64,000 nucleotides of DNA from Sphingobacteriales bacterium (GTDB lineage Bacteria; Bacteroidota; Bacteroidia; Chitinophagales; Chitinophagaceae), in assembly GCA_012270485.1 (NCBI GenBank), contig JAAXIF010000019.1, positions 1-64,000 of the forward strand, in the 5' to 3' direction. The translations under genes were made by a program, and so were the position numbers. Positions 11,141 to 54,010 of this stretch are shown in pieces. The notes beneath the pieces are model-generated. The model did not search any database, was not told the origin of the DNA, and saw nothing but the letters and a program-made list of their open reading frames with translations. Within the stretch, counting starts at the first letter, position 1, and every line of letters starts with the position of its first letter.

Positions 11141-11171
11141 ATGATGATTTTGTGGGAGCAAATATAGTGAA

Positions 11172-11270
11172 TAGTCCATAGTCCATGGTCCATGGTAAAT
11201 TGTTTGATTCATACCCTACTTAGTTGACATTTTCTTCCCATGGACTATGGACCATCGACTATTGACTATC
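11172..11270. repeat. short-word inverted repeat, family A (copy A2)
   Basis: atagtccatagtccatggtccatgg ... ccatggactatggaccatcgactattgactatc between divergent frr and transketolase genes. Confidence 0.8.
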
Positions 11271-11305
11271 TCTATTCCCTATCTTCGCACCCACAAAACA
11301 AGCAT

Positions 11306-12148
11306 ATGGCAAGTATTCAGGAATTGAAAGCTGCGGCCTCACAGATCAGGCGCGATATCGTTAGAATGGTTCATGGGGTTCAAAGCGGACATCCGGGTGG
11401 TTCTCTAGGTTGTACCGACTTCCTAACCGCCCTGTTTTTTCATACCATGAAACATGACCGTCAGTTTAAGATGGATGGTGTGGGTGAAGATCTGTTCTTC
11501 CTTTCTAACGGACATATTTCTCCTGTTTACTACTCTGTTCTTTCTCGTTCAGGTTATTTCGACAAAAAAGAACTGGCCAGCTTCCGTAAACTGAATACAC
11601 GTTTACAAGGTCACCCTACTACACATGAAGATTTACCCGGTGTAAGAATAGCCAGCGGATCATTGGGTCAGGGTATGAGTGTGGCCATTGGTGCAGCACT
11701 GACTAAGAAATTCAACAACGACCCCCACCTTATTTTCTCTTTACATGGTGATGGTGAATTACAGGAAGGACAAATATGGGAAGCAGTGATGTTTGCTGCA
11801 CATAATAAGGTAGATAACCTGATTGCGACTGTAGACTGGAACGGACAACAGATTGATGGTCCAACCAGCAAAGTTTTATCACTCGATAATCTGCACGATA
11901 AATTCAAAGCCTTTAACTGGACAGTTCTGGATATGAACGGAAATGATATGGAAGATGTGGTAGCTGTGCTGGATAAAGCAAAGTCTATGACCGGACAAGG
12001 TAAACCCATCTCTATTCTAATGAAGACAGAAATGGGCAAAGGTGTTGACTTCATGGAAGGCAGCCATGAATGGCATGGTATTGCTCCTAGTGATGAGCAA
12101 TTAGCCAAAGCATTGGGACAATTAGAGGAAACTTTGGGGGATTATTAG
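11306..12148 (+). CDS. transketolase N-terminal subunit (TPP-binding half)
   Basis: SGHPGGSLGCTDFLTALFF, GHGELQEGQ-like GDGELQEGQIWEA; ends after TPP domain. Confidence 0.92.
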   Translation: MASIQELKAAASQIRRDIVRMVHGVQSGHPGGSLGCTDFLTALFFHTMKHDRQFKMDGVGEDLFFLSNGHISPVYYSVLSRSGYFDKKELASFRKLNTRLQGHPTTHEDLPGVRIASGSLGQGMSVAIGAALTKKFNNDPHLIFSLHGDGELQEGQIWEAVMFAAHNKVDNLIATVDWNGQQIDGPTSKVLSLDNLHDKFKAFNWTVLDMNGNDMEDVVAVLDKAKSMTGQGKPISILMKTEMGKGVDFMEGSHEWHGIAPSDEQLAKALGQLEETLGDY

Positions 12149-13506: not shown

Positions 13507-13613
13507 GTGAATGGTGAATTGTCAATTATGAATTTATATTTGTGAATTGTCAATTGTGAATTGTGAATGATAAATCATCTCTGGTATTCACCATTCACAA
13601 TTGACGATTCACA
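13507..13613. repeat. short-word inverted repeat, family B (copy B1)
   Basis: gtgaatggtgaattgtcaattatgaatt...gtgaattgtcaattgtgaattgtgaatga ... attcaccattcacaattgacgattcac. Confidence 0.8.
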
Positions 13614-13988
13614 TTACTCATTTCCCTCCCCCTTCTTCTCCTCATTAATATTCTTAAATATCTCTTCCATTTTGAACACATAATCCAACGTGTCATCGAG
13701 ATAAAAATGAAGAACGGGTATTCGGCGGAGTTGGTGTTTCATTTTATCAGCCAATTCTTTCTTGATCTCCCATGCACGACCTTCTATCGTCTTCATGGTG
13801 GCTTTTGCATCTTTTACCTGGAACAGACTGAGATAAATTCTGGCTTCCAACAGATCGGGAGTAACTTTAACAGAGGAAATAGATACCATTCCTCCATCGA
13901 GCATGGAAAGATTCAGTCTCCTGAAAATATCATTCATTTCCTCTTGAATGGCTCCTGCTACCTGACGCTGACGTTTTCCTTCTTCCAT
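13614..13988 (-). CDS. rbfA: ribosome-binding factor A
   Basis: RQRQVAGAIQEEMNDIFRR, VSSVKVTPDLLEARIYLS-like, RIPVLHFYLDDTLDY. Confidence 0.92.
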   Translation of the reverse strand: MEEGKRQRQVAGAIQEEMNDIFRRLNLSMLDGGMVSISSVKVTPDLLEARIYLSLFQVKDAKATMKTIEGRAWEIKKELADKMKHQLRRIPVLHFYLDDTLDYVFKMEEIFKNINEEKKGEGNE

Positions 13989-21173: not shown

Positions 21174-21215
21174 GTCGATAGTCCATAGACCATGGTCCAT
21201 CGACTATGGACTATT
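21174..21215. repeat. family A (copy A3) between hemH and hemJ
   Basis: gtcgatagtccatagaccatggtccatcgactatggactatta. Confidence 0.8.
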
Positions 21216-23726: not shown

Positions 23727-24692
23727 ATGACCAAGGTAGTACGAATAGGAACACGCGACAGTCAGCTCGCCGTGTGGCAAGCCACATGGGTGCAAGAGCT
23801 CCTGAAAGAAAAAGGAGTAGCTACTGAGCTCGTGTATATTAAAAGTGAAGGAGATATTGATCTCGTAACACCACTCTATGAAATCGGTGTACAGGGCATC
23901 TTCACTAAAACACTGGATGCAGCCTTGCTCAGTAACAAAATTGATATTGCCGTTCACTCCATGAAAGATGTGCCCACGCAACTGGCCAAAGGCATACAAG
24001 AAGCAGCAGTATTAAAACGTGCATCATACAAAGATATTCTTGTTTATAAAGAAGATCATATACCAGAAGCTTTGGGTTATGTGAATGGTGAATGGCGAAC
24101 AGACCATGGACCATGGACCATGGACTATGGTCTATTTGCCACCAGCAGCGTTCGCCGCAAAGCACAATGGCTCAATCGTTATCCCGATCATCAGTTTGAT
24201 AATCTACGGGGTAATGTGAATACCCGTTTGCGTAAACTGGAAGAAAGCCATTGGCAGGGCGCCATCTTTGCTGCCGCCGGATTGGAAAGGATCGATCTTC
24301 GTCCGGAAAAAGCAATTGATCTTGACTGGATGCTACCCGCCCCTGCACAAGGTGCTGTGATGGTAGTGTGCAGAGAAGGAGAGACAGAGATCTTCAATAG
24401 TTGTCAACAATTACATCATCATGAAACCGCCATCTGCGCACATGCGGAAAGAAATTTCTTACGTCAACTGATGGGTGGTTGTGCTACTCCTATTTCGGCA
24501 CTGGCTCAGATAGAGGGAGATACTTTATTCTTTAAGGGCAACGTGGTATCACTGGATGGCAGTCAGAAAGTTGACATAAGTACAACTGTCTCTGTTTCAG
24601 TTGGGGCTGCAATTGGCACAGAAGCCGGACAAGAAATTCTGGCCATGGGTGCTGAAGAAATCATCCAAGAAATTAGAAATGCAGGAAAGTAA
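23727..24692 (+). CDS. hemC: hydroxymethylbilane synthase with repeat-derived in-frame insert
   Basis: VRIGTRDSQLAVWQATWV, DIAVHSMKDVPTQL, TSSVRRKAQWL, GGCATPISALA. Confidence 0.95.
   Translation: MTKVVRIGTRDSQLAVWQATWVQELLKEKGVATELVYIKSEGDIDLVTPLYEIGVQGIFTKTLDAALLSNKIDIAVHSMKDVPTQLAKGIQEAAVLKRASYKDILVYKEDHIPEALGYVNGEWRTDHGPWTMDYGLFATSSVRRKAQWLNRYPDHQFDNLRGNVNTRLRKLEESHWQGAIFAAAGLERIDLRPEKAIDLDWMLPAPAQGAVMVVCREGETEIFNSCQQLHHHETAICAHAERNFLRQLMGGCATPISALAQIEGDTLFFKGNVVSLDGSQKVDISTTVSVSVGAAIGTEAGQEILAMGAEEIIQEIRNAGK
24081..24134 (+). repeat. family B-like plus family A repeat (copy A4) inside hemC coding sequence
   Basis: gtgaatggtgaatggcgaacagaccatggaccatggaccatggactatggtcta, translated in frame VNGEWRTDHGPWTMDYGL. 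Confidence 0.85.
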
Positions 24693-25410
24693 AAAGAAAA
24701 TATTATCTACCAGACCTGTAAAAGAAACACTGATACAGGAAGCCGCTGAACAAAACATTCAGTTGGATATCATTCCCTTGATCGATACTGAACCGGTACT
24801 GGACATTGATACGCAACAGGAGATTGCACAGATTGCTTTACAATATGCTACGGTTGTTTTTACGAGCATGAACGCTGTGGAAAGTGTGATCACCATGCTC
24901 GATCAACAAGTGCCTGAATGGAATATTTACTGCATGGGCAATACCACACAAGAACTGATTCGTAACCATTTTGGAGAACAGGCTATTCGTGGTACCGGCA
25001 ATAACGCATCAGAATTAGCTGAAAATATTTTAACGGACAATGATGAATTGGATGAAGTGTTTTTCTTCTGCGGAGACCAGCGAAGAGATGAATTACCGGC
25101 AAAACTTACAGAAGCCGGTGTTCAGGTAGAAGAAATAGTGGTGTATAAGACCATTCCATTGTATCAAAAAATAGACACTGTTTACGACGGTATTCTGTTC
25201 TTTAGTCCAAGTGCTGTCCAAAGTTTTTTTCATACAAACAAAGCCGCTACTGCAACTGTATTCTTTGCTATAGGAAGTACGACGGAAGCAGCGATCAAAA
25301 AATATACAAACAATTCAATCATCACAGCTCACTCACCGGGGAAAGAAGAACTGGTGAGGAAAGCAATTCATTACTTCGCGAATGGTGAATTGTCAATTGT
25401 GAATTCATAA
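24679..25410 (+). CDS. hemD: uroporphyrinogen-III synthase
   Basis: Position after hem[41 protein letters not shown]; overlaps hemC 3' end. Confidence 0.85.
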
Positions 25411-25440
25411 AAATTGATCATTCCCCATTCACCATTCACA
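25379..25440. repeat. family B (copy B2) spanning hemD stop and hemD-hemE gap
   Basis: cgaatggtgaattgtcaattgtgaattcataaaaattgatcattccccattcaccattcaca. Confidence 0.8.
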
Positions 25441-25448
25441 AAAAAATT

Positions 25449-26477
25449 ATGCTAAAAAACGACCTACTCCTCCGAACCCTTCGCGGTGAGCCAACTGAAA
25501 GAACACCTGTATGGATGATGCGTCAGGCCGGACGATACCTTCCTGAGTATATGGTATTGCGTGAGAAATACGGCTTCTTTGAGCGTTGTCAAACCCCTGA
25601 ACTGGCTTGTGAGATCACATTACAGCCAATAGATATTGTGGGTGTAGATGCTGCTATTTTATTTTCAGATATTCTGGTAGTACCACAAGCCATGGGACTG
25701 GAAGTGCAATTGATCGAAAGCAAAGGTCCTGTTCTGCCTGATCCTATCAAAACCCATAAAGACATGTCGCGCGTTCGTGTACCGGATGTTCATGAAACAT
25801 TGGGATATGTGATGGATGCCATCAAACTCATCAAACAAGAACTGAATGGAAGAGTACCATTGATTGGTTTTGCAGGTGCTCCTTGGACTTTACTCTGCTA
25901 TATGGTACAAGGTAAAGGATCTAAAACCTTTGATGAAGCAAAGGCTTTCTGTTATACACAACCTGAACTGGCACATCAGTTATTACAAATGATCACAGAT
26001 ACCACCATTGCCTACTTGAAAGCACAAGTAAAAGCAGGTGCCGACACCGTTCAAATCTTCGATAGCTGGGGTGGATTATTGAGTCCTCATGATTTTGAGA
26101 ACCTGTCATTACAATACATGCGTCAGATCGTGGCTGCATTAAAAGATGAAGTACCCACCATTGTTTTTGCAAAAGGTGCGTGGCATAGTTTGGATAGTAT
26201 GGCTGCCACAGGTGCACATGGTTTGGGAATCGATTGGTGCATCAAGCCGGAACTGGCTCGTCAGTTTGCAGGTAACAATGTAACACTCCAGGGAAACTTT
26301 GATCCCGCTAAATTGTTATCACCTATTCCTGTGATCCAAAAAGAAGTGAAAGAAATGTTGCGTGCATTTGGTCCGGGCAGACATATCGCCAATCTCGGAC
26401 ATGGTATCTTACCTAATGTTCCGGTTGATCATGCAAGAGCATTTGTGGATGCTGTGAAAGAATTTCGTCACTCGTGA
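25449..26477 (+). CDS. hemE: uroporphyrinogen decarboxylase
   Basis: [45 protein letters not shown]. Confidence 0.97.
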
Positions 26478-26540
26478 ATTGTGAATAGTGAATTGTCAAT
26501 TGGAGAAACGTATTCACAATTGACAATTCACCATTCACGT
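26473..26540. repeat. family B (copy B3), hemE-hemF junction
   Basis: cgtgaattgtgaatagtgaattgtcaattggagaaacgtattcacaattgacaattcaccattcac. Confidence 0.85.
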
Positions 26541-31393: not shown

Positions 31394-31454
31394 GGAGTAA
31401 AGGTAGTAAATTGTGGGAAGAGAATTTGCCCCTGTAAAGGGTTAGGAGTTGAGA

Positions 31455-31533
31455 GTTGACGGTTGTTAGTTGACAGTTGACAGGAAAACCAGTCTTTCTT
31501 ATTTCTGTCAACTGTCAACTAACAACCGTCAAC
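31455..31533. repeat. short-word inverted repeat, family H
   Basis: gttgacggttgttagttgacagttgacag / ctgtcaactgtcaactaacaaccgtcaac: perfect 29-bp stem, 21-nt loop. Confidence 0.9.
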
Positions 31534-31563
31534 CCTCACTTAATTAGTTTTTAAAAATACCTC

Positions 31564-39231: not shown

Positions 39232-42048
39232 TTATATAACTACATTGATCATTTTACCTTTTACGAAGATGAGTTTCTTCAAAGGTTTTCCTTCCATCCA
39301 TTTTTGTACCAGCTCATTGGCAAGTACGATTTCTTTTACCTGCTCTTCAGTAGCATCTAATGCAATGGAAATATTGGTACGTGTTTTACCATTGATACTG
39401 ATGGGATATTCTTTGCTTGTCTCTGTAACATATGATGCATTAAATACCGGGAAAGATGCATCTAACACTGAACCTTCATTACCCAATTGCTTCCAAAGCT
39501 CCGCAGCAATATGTGGTGCATAGGGAGTTAACAGAATCAATACATCCTGAAGGATTTGTTTTTTATGACAGTTCAGATCACTCAATTCATTCACACAGAT
39601 CATAAAGCTACTCACAGCGGTATTAAAACTATAACGCTCCGTATCATCATCGATTTTTTTGATGGTGCGATGTAATACTTTTAACTCTCCAGCAGTCGGT
39701 TGTTCATCTGTCCATATCTTCCCTTTATTCTCATCAAAAAATAAACGCCACAATTTTTTCAGGAACCGATGCACACCTTCAATCCCTTTGGTATCCCAGG
39801 GTTTACTTTGATCTACCGGACCTAAGAACATTTCATACATGCGGAAAGTATCTGCTCCAAATTTCTCCACCAAGGTATCAGGGTTCACGGTGTTGAATTT
39901 GGATTTGGACATTTTTTCTACTTCAACTCCGCAGATGTATTTACCCTCTTCCAAAATAAATTCGGCATTGGCATATTCGCCATTGCGCCATTTCTTGAAA
40001 GCTTCAATATCCAATTCTACTCCATCCACAATGTTCACATCTACATGTAACTCATCTACCTCTACTCCTTGCTTTAGACTTGAGGAAATAAATGTCTGTG
40101 TCCCCTTTTTTCTATACACAAATCGACTACTCCCCTGTATCATCCCCTGATTCAACAATTTCCTAAACGGTTCATCAAAACCAATATAACCTAAGTCATA
40201 TAAGGCTTTGGTCCACATACGACTGTATAATAAATGTCCTACTGCATGTTCTGTACCGCCGATATATAGATCTACCTGATTCCAATAATCACTTACTTTC
40301 TTCTCACAAAATGTTTGTTCATTATTGGGATCCATATAACGCAAGAAATACCAACTACTGCCAGCATAACCGGGCATGGTATTGGTTTCGCGTACCGCAG
40401 GCTTTCCTTTATACGTTGTGTTTTTCCAATCATTCAAATTGGCCAGTGGGCCTTCTCCATCCGGACCGGGACCATAACTTTCTACATCAGGCAATAAGAG
40501 TGGCAATTCTTTTTCATCCAAAGGATAGGCAATACCATCCTGCCATACAATTGGGAATGGCTCACCCCAATAACGCTGGCGACTAAAGGCAGCATCACGC
40601 ATTTTATAATTCACTTTGCGTTTGCCGATACCCATTTCTTCCAGTTTGGTAATCACTACTTCAATGGCATCACGCATTTTCGTACCATTCAAGAATCCGC
40701 TATTACTCAGTACGGCATCTTTGGTAGCGTTAGCATCTGTTCCATCAAATGCATCCCCAATAATATTGGTAATAGGAATATTGAAATGCTTGGCGAATTT
40801 GAAATCTCTTTCATCACCACAAGGAACGGCCATGATGGCTCCGGTTCCATAACCTGCAAGCACATATTCTGAGATCCATACCGGAATTTCTCTTCCATCA
40901 AATGGGTTGATGGCATAAGCTCCCGTAAAACATCCCGTAATTTTTTTCTCCGCCTGACGCTCTCGATCACTCCTACTTTTTACATACGTGATATAAGCAT
41001 CCACTGCTTCTTTCTGCTCAGCCGTCGTAATTTTTTCAATCAACTCATGCTCCGGTGCAACTACCATAAAATCTACGCCGAAAATGGTATCAGGGCGGGT
41101 AGTGTAAACAAGAAGCTCCAAGCTGCTAGCTTCAGGCTGCAAGCTTGATTGTTCTTGCTTGTAGCCTGCAGCCTGCAGCTTGAAGCTGATCTCAGCTCCC
41201 GAAGATTTACCGATCCAATTCGTTTGCATTTCTTTCATGGCTTCGCTGAACTCGATGGTATCGAGTCCGCTGAGCAAACGATCTGCATATTCTGTGATAC
41301 GCAAATACCATTGACGTAGTTTCTTTTTGACAACAGGATGTCCACCACGCTCACTCACGCCATTCACTACTTCATCATTAGCCAATACGGTTCCCAAAGC
41401 TTCACACCAGTTCACTTCACCATAACCACAGAAAGCAAGACGATAATCCATCAAAATATCTTGCTGTTCTTTTTCAGAAAAAGCTTTCCATGCTGCTGCA
41501 GTGAATTGAAGAGTGGGATTACCCGGACAAACATGTTTGATATTTCCTTCCTGTTCAAAAGATTTAATGAGTTCCTGAATCGATACTGCTTTTTGCTGAT
41601 TACGATCGTAGAAGCTATTAAACAATTGAAGGAAAATCCATTGGGTCCATTGATAGTAATCAGCATCACAAGTACGCACTTCACGATCCCAGTCATAGCT
41701 GAATCCGATATTGTCGAGTTGTTTTCTGAAATTATCAATATTCTGAGCAGTACTTTTTGCCGGATGTACACCATGCTCCAAAGCGTATTGCTCAGCCGGT
41801 AATCCAAACGCATCATAACCCATGGGATGCAATACATTAAATCCCTTTAATCTTTTGAAACGACTCACAATATCAGAAGCGATATAACCCAATGGGTGGC
41901 CAACGTGTAAGCCTGCTCCACTTGGATACGGGAACATATCCAGCACATAATATTTAGGCTTGGTGCTGTTATTGCTTACCTGATAGGCTTTGGTATCCGT
42001 CCATTCTTTCTGCCATTTCTTTTCAATATCCCTGAAATTGTATTCCAT
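39232..42048 (-). CDS. leuS: leucyl-tRNA synthetase with repeat-derived in-frame insert
   Basis: MFPYPSGAGLHVGHPLGYIASD, VYTTRPDTIFGVDFMVVAPEH, MSKSKFNTVNPD. Confidence 0.97.
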   Translation of the reverse strand: MEYNFRDIEKKWQKEWTDTKAYQVSNNSTKPKYYVLDMFPYPSGAGLHVGHPLGYIASDIVSRFKRLKGFNVLHPMGYDAFGLPAEQYALEHGVHPAKSTAQNIDNFRKQLDNIGFSYDWDREVRTCDADYYQWTQWIFLQLFNSFYDRNQQKAVSIQELIKSFEQEGNIKHVCPGNPTLQFTAAAWKAFSEKEQQDILMDYRLAFCGYGEVNWCEALGTVLANDEVVNGVSERGGHPVVKKKLRQWYLRITEYADRLLSGLDTIEFSEAMKEMQTNWIGKSSGAEISFKLQAAGYKQEQSSLQPEASSLELLVYTTRPDTIFGVDFMVVAPEHELIEKITTAEQKEAVDAYITYVKSRSDRERQAEKKITGCFTGAYAINPFDGREIPVWISEYVLAGYGTGAIMAVPCGDERDFKFAKHFNIPITNIIGDAFDGTDANATKDAVLSNSGFLNGTKMRDAIEVVITKLEEMGIGKRKVNYKMRDAAFSRQRYWGEPFPIVWQDGIAYPLDEKELPLLLPDVESYGPGPDGEGPLANLNDWKNTTYKGKPAVRETNTMPGYAGSSWYFLRYMDPNNEQTFCEKKVSDYWNQVDLYIGGTEHAVGHLLYSRMWTKALYDLGYIGFDEPFRKLLNQGMIQGSSRFVYRKKGTQTFISSSLKQGVEVDELHVDVNIVDGVELDIEAFKKWRNGEYANAEFILEEGKYICGVEVEKMSKSKFNTVNPDTLVEKFGADTFRMYEMFLGPVDQSKPWDTKGIEGVHRFLKKLWRLFFDENKGKIWTDEQPTAGELKVLHRTIKKIDDDTERYSFNTAVSSFMICVNELSDLNCHKKQILQDVLILLTPYAPHIAAELWKQLGNEGSVLDASFPVFNASYVTETSKEYPISINGKTRTNISIALDATEEQVKEIVLANELVQKWMEGKPLKKLIFVKGKMINVVI
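41113..41188 (-). repeat. short-word repeat, family I, inside leuS coding sequence
   Basis: gaagctccaagctgctagcttcaggctgcaagcttgattgttcttgcttgtagcctgcagcctgcagcttgaagct; related copy at 60884-60910. Confidence 0.8.
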
Positions 42049-43531: not shown

Positions 43532-43594
43532 AGTCCATGGTCCATAGTCCATGGTCAATAGAATCTATAACCCATGGACTATGGACCATGGACT
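43532..43594. repeat. family A (copy A5)
   Basis: agtccatggtccatagtccatgg / ccatggactatggaccatggact perfect 23-bp stem, 17-nt loop. Confidence 0.92.
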
Positions 43595-43609
43595 ACCAAC
43601 TCTAGCCCC

Positions 43610-44407
43610 ATGAGTATTTTCGACGCTATCATCATTGCCATTGTGGAAGGACTGACTGAATTTTTACCGGTATCTTCTACCGGACATATGATCATTGCCA
43701 GTTCTTTTTTGGGTATTGCCAAAGACGATTTTACTAAATTATTTGAAGTGGCTATTCAGTTAGGGGCTATACTTTCTGTGGTGGTATTGTATCGCAAAAA
43801 ATTCTTCCCTCTGAACCGATTGAATTTTTATCTCAAGTTATTGGTAGCAGTAATCCCCGCACTCGGATTGGGTGCTATCTTTTCCGATAAAATTGATGCA
43901 TTACTGGAAAGTCCACTTACAGTAGCCATCACCATGTTGGCAGGTGGAATTGTTCTTTTGTTTATCGACAAATTATTTCAGCAGCCTATAATTGAAAAAG
44001 AAGAAGAGGTAAGTTTTTTTCGCGCTCTACTGATTGGCTTCTGGCAATGTGTAGCGATGATTCCGGGTGTAAGCAGAAGTGCGGCTAGTATTATTGGCGG
44101 TATGCAACAAAAGCTGACCAGAAATCTGGCTGCAGAATTTTCTTTTTTCCTTGCCGTACCAACGATGGCTGCCGCAACCGGTTACAAACTACTCAAAGCA
44201 TGGAAAGAAACCCCCGAAATGCTAACCAATACCGATAATGTAATTGCCCTAGCTGTAGGTAATGTGGTCGCGTTTATTGTTGCCATGTTAGCCATCAAAT
44301 TTTTTATCGGCTTTCTGCAAAAACATGGCTTCCGTTTATTTGGCTGGTACCGTGTTATTGGAGGAACAATTTTGCTGGTACTGGTATTGACTGGATACTT
44401 GAAGTAA
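43610..44407 (+). CDS. uppP: undecaprenyl-diphosphatase
   Basis: [39 protein letters not shown]. Confidence 0.95.
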
Positions 44408-44409
44408 TT

Positions 44410-44493
44410 TCGGATGTCGGATTTGATCTTAAATCTGTGATCAAAAGTCGAAAATCGAATATTCTACATCAGAAATCAGACATCCGACATCAG
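44410..44493. repeat. short-word inverted repeat, family G
   Basis: tcggatgtcggatttgatc...aaatctgtgatcaaaagtcgaaaatcg ... cagaaatcagacatccgacatcagacatc. Confidence 0.7.
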
Positions 44494-44497
44494 ACAT

Positions 44498-45064
44498 CTA
44501 AAATTTTCTCTTCACTCTCTCCGGATTTTTATTCAAGAAATCTTCCCAGCCTTTTAAGGGCTTTCCTGATTTGATAAGGGGTGATGCTGATTGATAGTGG
44601 TGACAAAGTGCTACGGCGAGGGCATCCGTTGCATCAAAGTATTGCGGTTTGTCTTCGATCTGTAAAATCCGTTGTAACATTTTCCATACCTGATCTTTAT
44701 CAGCGTTACCATTACCGGTGATGGATTGTTTTACTTTTTTAGGTGAATATTCTGTTACAGTCAATCCCGCCTGCATAGCAGCAGCTATGGCTACACCCTG
44801 AGCCCTTCCTAGTTTGAGCATACTTTGTACATTCTTTCCGAAAAAAGGGGCTTCTATGGCAAAAGTGGAAGGTTTATATAGCTTCACCAGTTCACATACC
44901 CGAGTATGTATCATTTCAAGACGGGCATAGATATCTTTTTCCTTGGTGAGTTTGAGCACATCCATCAACAGTACCTGGGGTTGCCCTTTATGGATACGCA
45001 ATAAAGCATATCCCATTAATTGCGTACCCGGATCAATACCGAGGATGATCTCGTCTTTGGCCAT
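44498..45064 (-). CDS. ruvC: Holliday junction resolvase RuvC
   Basis: ILGIDPGTQLMGYALL, FAIEAPFFGKNVQSMLKLGRAQGVAIAAA. Confidence 0.95.
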   Translation of the reverse strand: MAKDEIILGIDPGTQLMGYALLRIHKGQPQVLLMDVLKLTKEKDIYARLEMIHTRVCELVKLYKPSTFAIEAPFFGKNVQSMLKLGRAQGVAIAAAMQAGLTVTEYSPKKVKQSITGNGNADKDQVWKMLQRILQIEDKPQYFDATDALAVALCHHYQSASPLIKSGKPLKGWEDFLNKNPERVKRKF

Positions 45065-48431: not shown

Positions 48432-49751
48432 TCAGTTTACTTTTCCTTGTTTATGTTTTGTAGCTGAGGCAAAGGTGAGTAATATCAATCCAATCACAAA
48501 GAAAACAACCAACGCCAATACCGAATTACGTTGTGAACCGGTGTATTCATTGATATATCCGAAACTAAACATACCAATCACAATAGCTATCTTCTCTGTT
48601 ACATCATAAAAACTAAAGAAAGAAGTTGTGTCTTTTGTCTCAGGCATCAGTTTCGCATACGTACTTCTGCTGAGCGATTGAATACCCCCCATTACAAAAC
48701 CTACCAACACAGCTAAAGCATAGAACTCATTCACGCCGTCACGAGGTAGTAAATAGCCGATGATACAAAGTATGATCCACAAAGAAACTGTTACCATCAG
48801 TGCACGGAAATTCCCCAATTTATCTGAAAGTTTAGCAATGGTATAAGCCCCGGGTATCGCTACTAACTGAATAATTAATATCGCAATAATGAGATTCTGC
48901 GTAGGAATATTCAATTCACTTTTACCATATAAAGTTGCAGCAAGCATCACCGTTTGAACACCCATATTGTAAAAGAAAAATGCTGCGAGATAACGCTTCA
49001 AGACCGGAAGATGTGTCAGTTGCTTCCATACTTTATTGAGTTCTTTATAACCATGCGTAAAAACACTTCCTTTTGCAGAGGGTTGTCCGGCAGGCGAACT
49101 TTGGGGTAGACGGCTCAATGCCAATTGTCCAAATCCCCACCACCAAATACCTACAAGTAAAAAAGAGATTTGTGAAGCTTTGCCCGTAGTAATACCAAAT
49201 GTATCGGGCATCAATACAAATACAAAGCAGATGATCTGCAAAATCACACTACCCGTATATCCCATTGCAAAACCTTTCGCACTCACTTTATCCTGGTCTG
49301 CAGGTGCTGCGATCTCGGGAAGAAATGAATTATAAAAAACCAAACTACTCCAATAACCGATACAGGCAATAATCATACATATCAATCCATAGGCAAGATT
49401 GCTGCTGTCATAAAAGAATAATGCACTACAAGCAATACTTCCCAGTGTACAGAAAAAGAACAAAAACTTTTTCTTGTTCCCTTTGAAGTCAGCAATCGAT
49501 GACAACATGGGCGACATTATGGCTACAATGATAAAGGCAACGCCTAATGCATAATTGTACAGCGAGGTATTGACAAACTCTCTGCCAAATAAGCGAACGG
49601 TATCATTAGAAGTAGCATCATTGCCGTCGCCGGTAACAGCTTCAAAATAAGCAGGAAAAATAGTTGAAGTGATCACCAGATTATATACACTATTTGCCCA
49701 GTCATACATGGCCCAGCCATTAATGACTCTTTTGGATGCAGTTGTTTGCAT
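48432..49751 (-). CDS. MFS transporter, UMF1/Atg22-like
   Basis: INGWAMYDWANSVYNLVITSTIFPAYF; start MQTTASKR, upstream ORF is repeats. Confidence 0.9.
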   Translation of the reverse strand: MQTTASKRVINGWAMYDWANSVYNLVITSTIFPAYFEAVTGDGNDATSNDTVRLFGREFVNTSLYNYALGVAFIIVAIMSPMLSSIADFKGNKKKFLFFFCTLGSIACSALFFYDSSNLAYGLICMIIACIGYWSSLVFYNSFLPEIAAPADQDKVSAKGFAMGYTGSVILQIICFVFVLMPDTFGITTGKASQISFLLVGIWWWGFGQLALSRLPQSSPAGQPSAKGSVFTHGYKELNKVWKQLTHLPVLKRYLAAFFFYNMGVQTVMLAATLYGKSELNIPTQNLIIAILIIQLVAIPGAYTIAKLSDKLGNFRALMVTVSLWIILCIIGYLLPRDGVNEFYALAVLVGFVMGGIQSLSRSTYAKLMPETKDTTSFFSFYDVTEKIAIVIGMFSFGYINEYTGSQRNSVLALVVFFVIGLILLTFASATKHKQGKVN

Positions 49752-49805
49752 GTGGAGGGTTTTGGTTCTTAAAGATAAGGGGAAAGTGATAGAGAAAGTT
49801 CTCTG

Positions 49806-49913
49806 CCATGGGCTATGGACTATCGACCATGGACCATAGCTAATAGTCCATAGTCCATGGTAGGAAATATGCTTTTCACCTTTGAACTTTCTCCAAAGGA
49901 GCCCTATGGACAC
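49806..49913. repeat. composite repeat: family A (A6) plus families E and M
   Basis: ccatgggctatggactatcgaccatggaccatagctaatagtccatagtccatgg...cttttcacctttgaactttctccaaaggagccctatggacac. Confidence 0.8.
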
Positions 49914-52821: not shown

Positions 52822-52886
52822 GATAGTCCATAGTTCATGGCACATAGTTGATCATCTATACACTATGGTCCATGGACTATGGACTA
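52822..52886. repeat. family A (copy A7) between divergent rsmA and pdxA
   Basis: gatagtccatagttcatggcacatagttgatcatctatacactatggtccatggactatggact. Confidence 0.82.
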
Positions 52887-52918
52887 AAGTCGTATTTTTA
52901 TACCCTAAAGCTATACTG

Positions 52919-54010
52919 ATGAGTAATGAAATGCAAAAGCCGGTGATTGGTTTCTCATGTGGGGATTTGAATGGGATTGGAATTGAATTGATACTGAAGA
53001 CACTGGGAGACCATCGTCTATTGGATTTCTGCACCCCGGTGGTATTTGCCAGTAATAAAAGCATCAACTTCTATCGAAAAAGCTTACCGGAAATTAATTT
53101 CAACTATGCCAGTGGAAGAGATTTTAGCAGACTCAATCCTAAACAAGTCAATATTTATAATTGCTGGGAAGAGGAAGTGGCTATAACACCGGGTCAGTTA
53201 AACGATACCGGCGGGAAATATGGTCTTCTGTCGTTGAAAGAAGCTGCACAAGCTTTAAAGGACGGTCATATTCATGGGTTGGTTACCGCCCCTATCCATA
53301 AAAAAAATATTCAATCGGCTGATTTTCATCATACAGGTCATACGCCTTTTTTGAAAGAATTATTCGGTGTGAATGATGTACTGATGTTTATGGTAGCTGA
53401 TAATATGCGTATCGGTTTATTGACAGAACATGTTACCGTATCTGATGTCGCTAAACATATTACCAAGGAGAATATTATCAGTAAATTGAAAATCATGCAC
53501 GCCAGTCTGCAAAAGGATTTTGGTATTGATAAACCCAAGATTGCTGTGTTAGGATTGAATCCACATGCAGGTGACGAAGGATTGATTGGCAGTGAAGAAG
53601 AAAATATCATTAAACCCGCGATCAAAGAAGCCAAGCACCAGATGATGGTTTTTGGTCCTTACAGTGCTGATGCTTTCTTTGCACGAGGTCAGCATGAAAG
53701 ATTTGACGCGGTTCTTGCCATGTACCACGACCAAGGATTGATTCCATTCAAATCACTGGCCATTGGGGAAGGCGTTAACTATACTGCCGGATTGAATGCC
53801 GTTAGAACCAGCCCGGATCATGGAACTGCATTTGATATTGCCGGAAAAGGAAAAGCAGATCACAGTTCATTTTTGGCTGCTACATTTACTTGTATTGAGA
53901 TCATTCGTATGAGACTTGGTTTTACTGAAATGAGACAAAATCCGCTTCGAAAAATGAGCGCAAGAATGTTTGCCAATGCGGTGGATGAGCGTATCGAAGA
54001 AACCGAATAA
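52919..54010 (+). CDS. pdxA: 4-hydroxythreonine-4-phosphate dehydrogenase
   Basis: VIGFSCGDLNGIGIELILKTL, LGLNPHAGDEGLIGSEE, HDQGLIPFKSL. Confidence 0.95.
   Translation: MSNEMQKPVIGFSCGDLNGIGIELILKTLGDHRLLDFCTPVVFASNKSINFYRKSLPEINFNYASGRDFSRLNPKQVNIYNCWEEEVAITPGQLNDTGGKYGLLSLKEAAQALKDGHIHGLVTAPIHKKNIQSADFHHTGHTPFLKELFGVNDVLMFMVADNMRIGLLTEHVTVSDVAKHITKENIISKLKIMHASLQKDFGIDKPKIAVLGLNPHAGDEGLIGSEEENIIKPAIKEAKHQMMVFGPYSADAFFARGQHERFDAVLAMYHDQGLIPFKSLAIGEGVNYTAGLNAVRTSPDHGTAFDIAGKGKADHSSFLAATFTCIEIIRMRLGFTEMRQNPLRKMSARMFANAVDERIEETE

Follow-up and report, generated by a model that had tools for sequence, protein, structure and literature searches.

The window, i.e. the whole stretch of 64,000 nucleotides of Chitinophagaceae DNA analysed here, carries on its forward strand the hemC gene for hydroxymethylbilane synthase (23727-24692, 321 aa). 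The predicted protein matches the HemC family over both domains (Pfam PF01379 with 225.6 bits, PF03900 with 49.8 bits) and reaches 281 bits against TIGR00212, for which the cut-off is 164; its AlphaFold model is matched best in the PDB by 1ypn (TM 0.92, normalised by target) and also matches 1pda, the fold neighbours being porphobilinogen deaminases. Inside the gene, an in-frame heptamer array is situated at 24081-24135 on the forward strand (its period-7 score is 26, which codon shuffling places at p=0.002), the codons at 24081-24134 encoding residues 119-136, VNGEWRTDHGPWTMDYGL. It forms a single unbroken run in phase, GTGAATG GTGAATG GCGAACA GACCATG GACCATG GACCATG GACTATG GTCTAT. A preliminary description had placed a repeat at exactly this position and in this frame, with which our sequence agrees, and had read it as a unit of a family A preceded by family B-like words; both kinds of words are indeed present, but as parts of one continuous array with a period of seven. 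From D103 to the conserved ATSSVRR, the loop of the window's HemC measures about 36 residues compared to 17-23 in many other Bacteroidota HemC proteins. Residues 119-136 presumably belong to a surface loop of domain 2, judging from the general HemC fold; the mean pLDDT of the model is 70 for residues 121-130 and above 90 for most of the protein. The CCATGGA-type part of the array (24101-24134, forward strand) constitutes the core of a hairpin predicted for the RNA of 24075-24145 (-30.9 kcal/mol, z=-4.8 against 200 dinucleotide shuffles), and a search for known structured RNAs gave no Rfam family at gathering score anywhere in the window.

In this Sediminibacterium-like genome, the intergenic hairpins formed by seven-base repeats number in the hundreds. 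The motif CCATGGACYATGGTC, with at most two mismatches, has 33 matches in the window where 0.11 would be expected, and CCATGGACCATGG has 54 in the genome, against 0 for the reversed control. A scan of 864 kb of the source genome, made up of the window and a further 800 kb and based on simple ORF calls, yielded 128 arrays at lag 7, some of which include N runs (124 with N excluded), versus 4-11 at lags 5, 6 and 8-13. In these arrays, words of seven bases follow one another in tandem, and two such runs often face each other as inverted arms; most of the arrays are situated between genes (1.25 per kb in intergenic against 0.024 per kb in coding sequence). With a tandem seven-base unit in many dispersed copies they belong to the class of heptanucleotide tandem repeats, and 45 different words are the commonest ones of the scanned arrays. 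Spacers between tandem (1.43 per kb), convergent (1.28 per kb) and divergent genes (0.80 per kb) contain them alike, which rules out a terminator between convergent genes as their sole role. The earlier statement that a mainly intergenic repeat is located in frame in an essential enzyme, directly before the conserved TSSVRR, is borne out. Among viral contigs, CCATGGACCATGGACCATGG is present in one only (L346, IMGVR_UViG_3300044591_001746, positions 343-362), and this contig may be host DNA.

Further arrays of the window could be compared with their orthologous sites in the genomes G093, G104 and G123. CCATGGA-type inverted heptamer arrays are found between divergent genes at 11164-11269 and upstream of the ORF 43574-44407 at 43533-43593, CCATGGA-type arrays at the predicted N-terminus of the ORF 48432-49913 (49805-49861), and CCATGGA-type words between divergent genes at 52826-52886, a site at which G123 has no array. 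For several ORFs (11240-12148, 43574-44407, 48432-49913, and 52865-54010), the predicted start is located within a heptamer array or directly ahead of one, with N-termini such as MDYG... and MVHGLW...; their true starts may be situated further in, and the predicted N-termini are suspect. Between genes, heptamer hairpins lie at 13507-13622, where G093 possesses a hairpin of other words between flanks of 96-99% identity, at 26465-26538, with word differences in G093 and G104, and at 31434-31538, with word differences in G123 and G093. The intergenic CCATGGA/ACTATGG hairpin at 21174-21214 corresponds in G093 and G104 to period-8 AATTTGAA/ATTTGGAA arrays, not to heptamers, and a heptamer hairpin at 25380-25439, which provides the C-terminal codons and the stop of hemD, consists of other words in both of these genomes. 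Outright gain or loss also happens: the heptamer array at 44441-44498 is absent from G123, with 76 nt between the flanks in the window versus 3 nt there. The sites of the window arrays are still occupied in 13 of 21 cases in G123, 7 of 8 in G093, and 5 of 6 in G104. Words differ at 5 of 21 sites (G123), 4 of 8 (G093), and 3 of the 5 occupied ones (G104), some of the differences from G123 being variants within the CCATGGA vocabulary, e.g., at 2071 and 11164. Stems are retained with different words at orthologous intergenic sites. Judged from these alignments, words at orthologous sites diverge among close relatives while the site often remains occupied.

For the hemC site itself, 169 distinct HemC proteins of Chitinophagaceae were compared (many of the genomes are drafts, and the loop alignments are uncertain). 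The relatives, where named, comprise Sediminibacterium, Lacibacter, Ferruginibacter, and other Chitinophagaceae; they were found in a genome collection by one peptide pattern taken from the loop itself, a choice that may favour close carriers. In the genus search, 93 of 147 genomes, many of them small (about 1.2-2.5 Mb), gave no HemC match, possibly owing to a loss of haem synthesis. The shortest loop has 15 aa and the longest 59; most lengths cluster in a peak at 17-23, and a second, broad group begins at 27. Loops of at least 27 residues occur in 80 of the 169 proteins, and about half of the set is without a long loop. In the long loops, the match is 0.389 for lag 7 and 0.351 for lag 14; the other lags tested give 0.23-0.28, and the remainder of the gene gives 0.24-0.28. 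Heptamer arrays were detected (p<0.01) in 46 of the 169 loops, but in only 2 of 668 control windows from the same genes. In 33 of the 80 long loops, there is no array even at p<0.05, such that loop length alone does not require the repeat.

Across Chitinophagaceae, the hemC loops use about 20 different words, among them GTGAATG/CATTCAC, CCATGGA, GTCGAAA, TTCGAAA, AATTCAA, GTTGACA, and CGACTCA. Words of the GTGAATG/CATTCAC type are found in the loops of G104, G079, and G064. The array of G104 reads GTGAATG GTGAATG GTCAATG GACCATG GACCATT CACCATA GGCCATG GACTATT; its words stand midway from the GTGAATG/CACCATT type to the window array, the change looks gradual, and the wider spread of the GTGAATG type suggests its direction. 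On a HemC tree built without the loop, parsimony requires at least 21 changes in array presence and at least 22 changes of the word among carriers, where loops without a strong array were scored as absent and words were compared strictly. Other sequences are also found in this loop: an unrelated, dispersed repeat that is not heptameric, GTCATCCCGAGCGCAGCCGAG, is situated in the hemC loops of G010 and G065 (L003 and L122), the genomes of which contain 28 and 29 matches to it, and the loops of the HemC proteins L036 and L185 end in SPLGDGG and NPPLGDRG, respectively, which in L036 is encoded by a palindrome, CCCCTTTAGGGG, that may represent a third class of repeat in the loop.

The preliminary description had assumed the simple insertion of a family A unit into hemC. 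This does not hold, since orthologues with 92-94% identity keep the loop length and the register but are composed of different mixtures of words, and a single recent insertion is thereby ruled out. Close homologues with another sequence of similar length had been named beforehand as what would speak against the proposal; they do sink simple insertion, yet their sequences are mostly heptamer arrays themselves. The comparison thus points to an old or recurrent occupation of the hemC loop, followed by word turnover.

Other conserved enzymes carry such arrays as well. On the reverse strand of the window, leuS (39232-42048; leucine--tRNA ligase, 938 aa; TIGR00396, 973 bits) contains in frame a heptamer array with inverted arms (41113-41187), and the corresponding array of G123 is shorter by exactly 21 nt, i.e., three heptamers or seven codons, with the frame kept. 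Elsewhere in the source genome, argS (L221) and the linker of a fused E1 alpha-beta dehydrogenase (L208) contain CCATGGA arrays that keep the frame, and a further in-frame array is found in argH; an array in mnmE scored weakly (11.4) and is not counted. The argS and E1 loops of relatives possess other words or no clear array, with a length difference of 31 versus 38 codons in argS. As far as sequence comparison goes, in-frame occupancy by repeat words of the host genome is hence recurrent in the hemC loop and likewise affects other essential enzymes.

Concerning the distribution of words, a survey of 12 genomes found two successive GTCGAAA in G371 and G457 only, two successive TTCGAAA in G422 only, GTCATCCCGAGCGCAGCCGAG in G010 and G065 only, and CCATGGACCATGGAC in G000 and G123 only; GTGAATGGTGAATGGTC is commonest in G197, the hemC of which has GTGAATG words. 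Most of the hemC words tested recur elsewhere in the carrier's own genome. The exception is G217, where hemC is the single place with a long CTACTCA array; this excludes a universal agreement between the hemC word and the words of the genome, and it counts against the reading that we prefer. Within genomes, 8-mers are shared more than expected between hemC and E1 (p=0.00015), hemC and argS (p=0.00025), and argS and E1 (p=0.00145) in a permutation test that leaves part of the phylogenetic signal in place, and p remains low after the three closest relatives are dropped.

The hemC segment is probably a site at which a heptamer hairpin is resident. The arrays are probably selfish or near-neutral hairpins for which permissive protein loops have room and whose words are renewed from the current repeat vocabulary of the genome; their near-neutrality or selfishness at the protein level is what we infer. 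New words would arise by slippage inside arrays and spread by conversion or insertion between sites, and in coding sequence the survivors would be those versions that are free of stops and keep the frame in tolerant loops. As 7 and 3 have no common factor, a pure array of heptamers gives the same cyclic peptide whichever frame of a strand is read; a stop therefore closes every frame of that strand or none. All six frames of CCATGGA are open (PWTMDHG, reverse SMVHGPW), which makes this word easy to tolerate. In GTGAATG, read forward, TGA appears in every frame after three words, and the hemC arms interrupt this word with GTCAATG or GCGAACA. Possibly, though this is put forward tentatively, genome-wide exchange keeps rewriting the hairpins both between genes and in essential proteins, such that enzymes without any relationship change their loops together, following the current vocabulary of the species; if true, non-coding repeats would here drive protein loops into concerted evolution.

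A palindromic element moved by a transposase (a MITE or REP-like element), which inserts separately at each site and by new insertions displaces old ones, would agree with the presence or absence of the array at 44441-44498, with the difference in the whole hairpin at 13507 between flanks of 96-99% identity, and with the copy sets specific to genomes. We nevertheless consider it rather unlikely, as constant termini were not seen and the differences within hemC are patchwork and in register. At the absent site 44441-44498, a target-site duplication is not clear, and a search by the HxH motif only for a REP-type (Y1) transposase, covering 800 kb or roughly one fifth of the genome together with stretches from relatives, gave no convincing candidate. 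Evolution purely in situ, with slippage expanding words loop by loop, template switching rendering the arms complementary, and no exchange between sites, fits the length differences of exactly 21 nt in leuS and argS and the series of words within hemC. As the only process it is improbable: a genome uses the same words at many sites that are not linked, while its relatives lack them, and the words of hemC, argS, and E1 correlate within genomes, which argues for more than independent change at each locus.

The array might also be functional, either as an mRNA hairpin that tunes translation or decay of hemC or through a role of the loop in the protein, with selection retaining the hairpin regardless of its words. 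The stable fold predicted for the window copy and the intergenic stems retained despite different words are consistent with such a role, as is the folding z (from plain base shuffles), which falls below -2 for 20 of the 80 long loops but for only 2 of 80 control segments. Equally, 60 of the 80 long loops exhibit no strong fold by the same shuffles, roughly every second HemC of the set is without the long loop, and intergenic arrays occur in every gene-orientation context; we give function little probability. Ordinary drift of a low-complexity loop, or chance, is by far the least credible: proteins commonly have loops that vary, and no repeat is present in some of the long HemC loops, but the excess of motif matches in the window (33 against 0.11), the contrast of the loops with the control windows (46 of 169 against 2 of 668), and the specificity of the signal for lag 7 refute a chance origin of the window copy. 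The findings carry with them a warning, namely that loop residues and some predicted N-termini in these proteins may reflect repeat biology rather than selection on the protein.

To our knowledge, in-frame palindromic repeats in housekeeping genes concern mainly Rickettsia and Wolbachia. The Chitinophagaceae constitute another bacterial family with comparable in-frame repeats, here with a very simple seven-base unit, and the hemC site, comparable over more than 150 HemC sequences, renders the entry and rewriting of repeats inside proteins directly testable. Our literature search, which covered few subscription papers, returned neither in-frame heptamer arrays in proteins of Bacteroidota nor the combination of features seen here, which is weak evidence for novelty.

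The cyanobacterial STRR are heptanucleotide tandem repeats. Such repeats are also described for Beggiatoaceae, Cyanobacteria, and some Bacteroidetes (TAACTGA; PMC4679880), and for Xanthomonas and Nostoc (PMC4692102). The arrays studied here resemble them in their seven-base tandem units, their many copies, their mostly intergenic position, and their lineage-specific words; they differ in that the units are often paired as inverted arms, in that dozens of words coexist in one genome, and in their in-frame position inside conserved enzymes across a bacterial family.

The organization inside genes is closest in behaviour to that of the Rickettsia palindromic elements (RPE), although size, sequence, and host are different. 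In the literature citing Ogata et al. 2000 and 2002 (PMC6649704, PMC10969869, PMC3767692), RPEs are palindromes that are found between genes as well as in frame in unrelated genes, that are reported not to abolish enzyme activity, and whose sites are possible insertion hotspots; they form families of about 100-150 bp with a recognisable peptide, and related elements (WPEs) exist in Wolbachia. Equally to RPEs, the arrays of hemC, argS, E1, leuS, and argH are situated in frame in unrelated genes. In contrast to RPEs, the unit is a 7-bp word, the coding arrays are shorter (about 20-75 nt), no constant element sequence exists, many words are interchangeable and turn over in register, and the hosts are Chitinophagaceae. 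Switching of words at a fixed stem is shared with the P6b stem of the Nostoc trnL intron, where seven-base repeats switch repeatedly between two classes of words while the structure stays similar (PMC4476775). That stem belongs to an intron RNA at one locus, whereas the arrays described here occupy protein-coding loops and many intergenic sites and use far more than two words. The hemC system thus works like RPEs and like the Nostoc trnL P6b stem, and belongs to neither.
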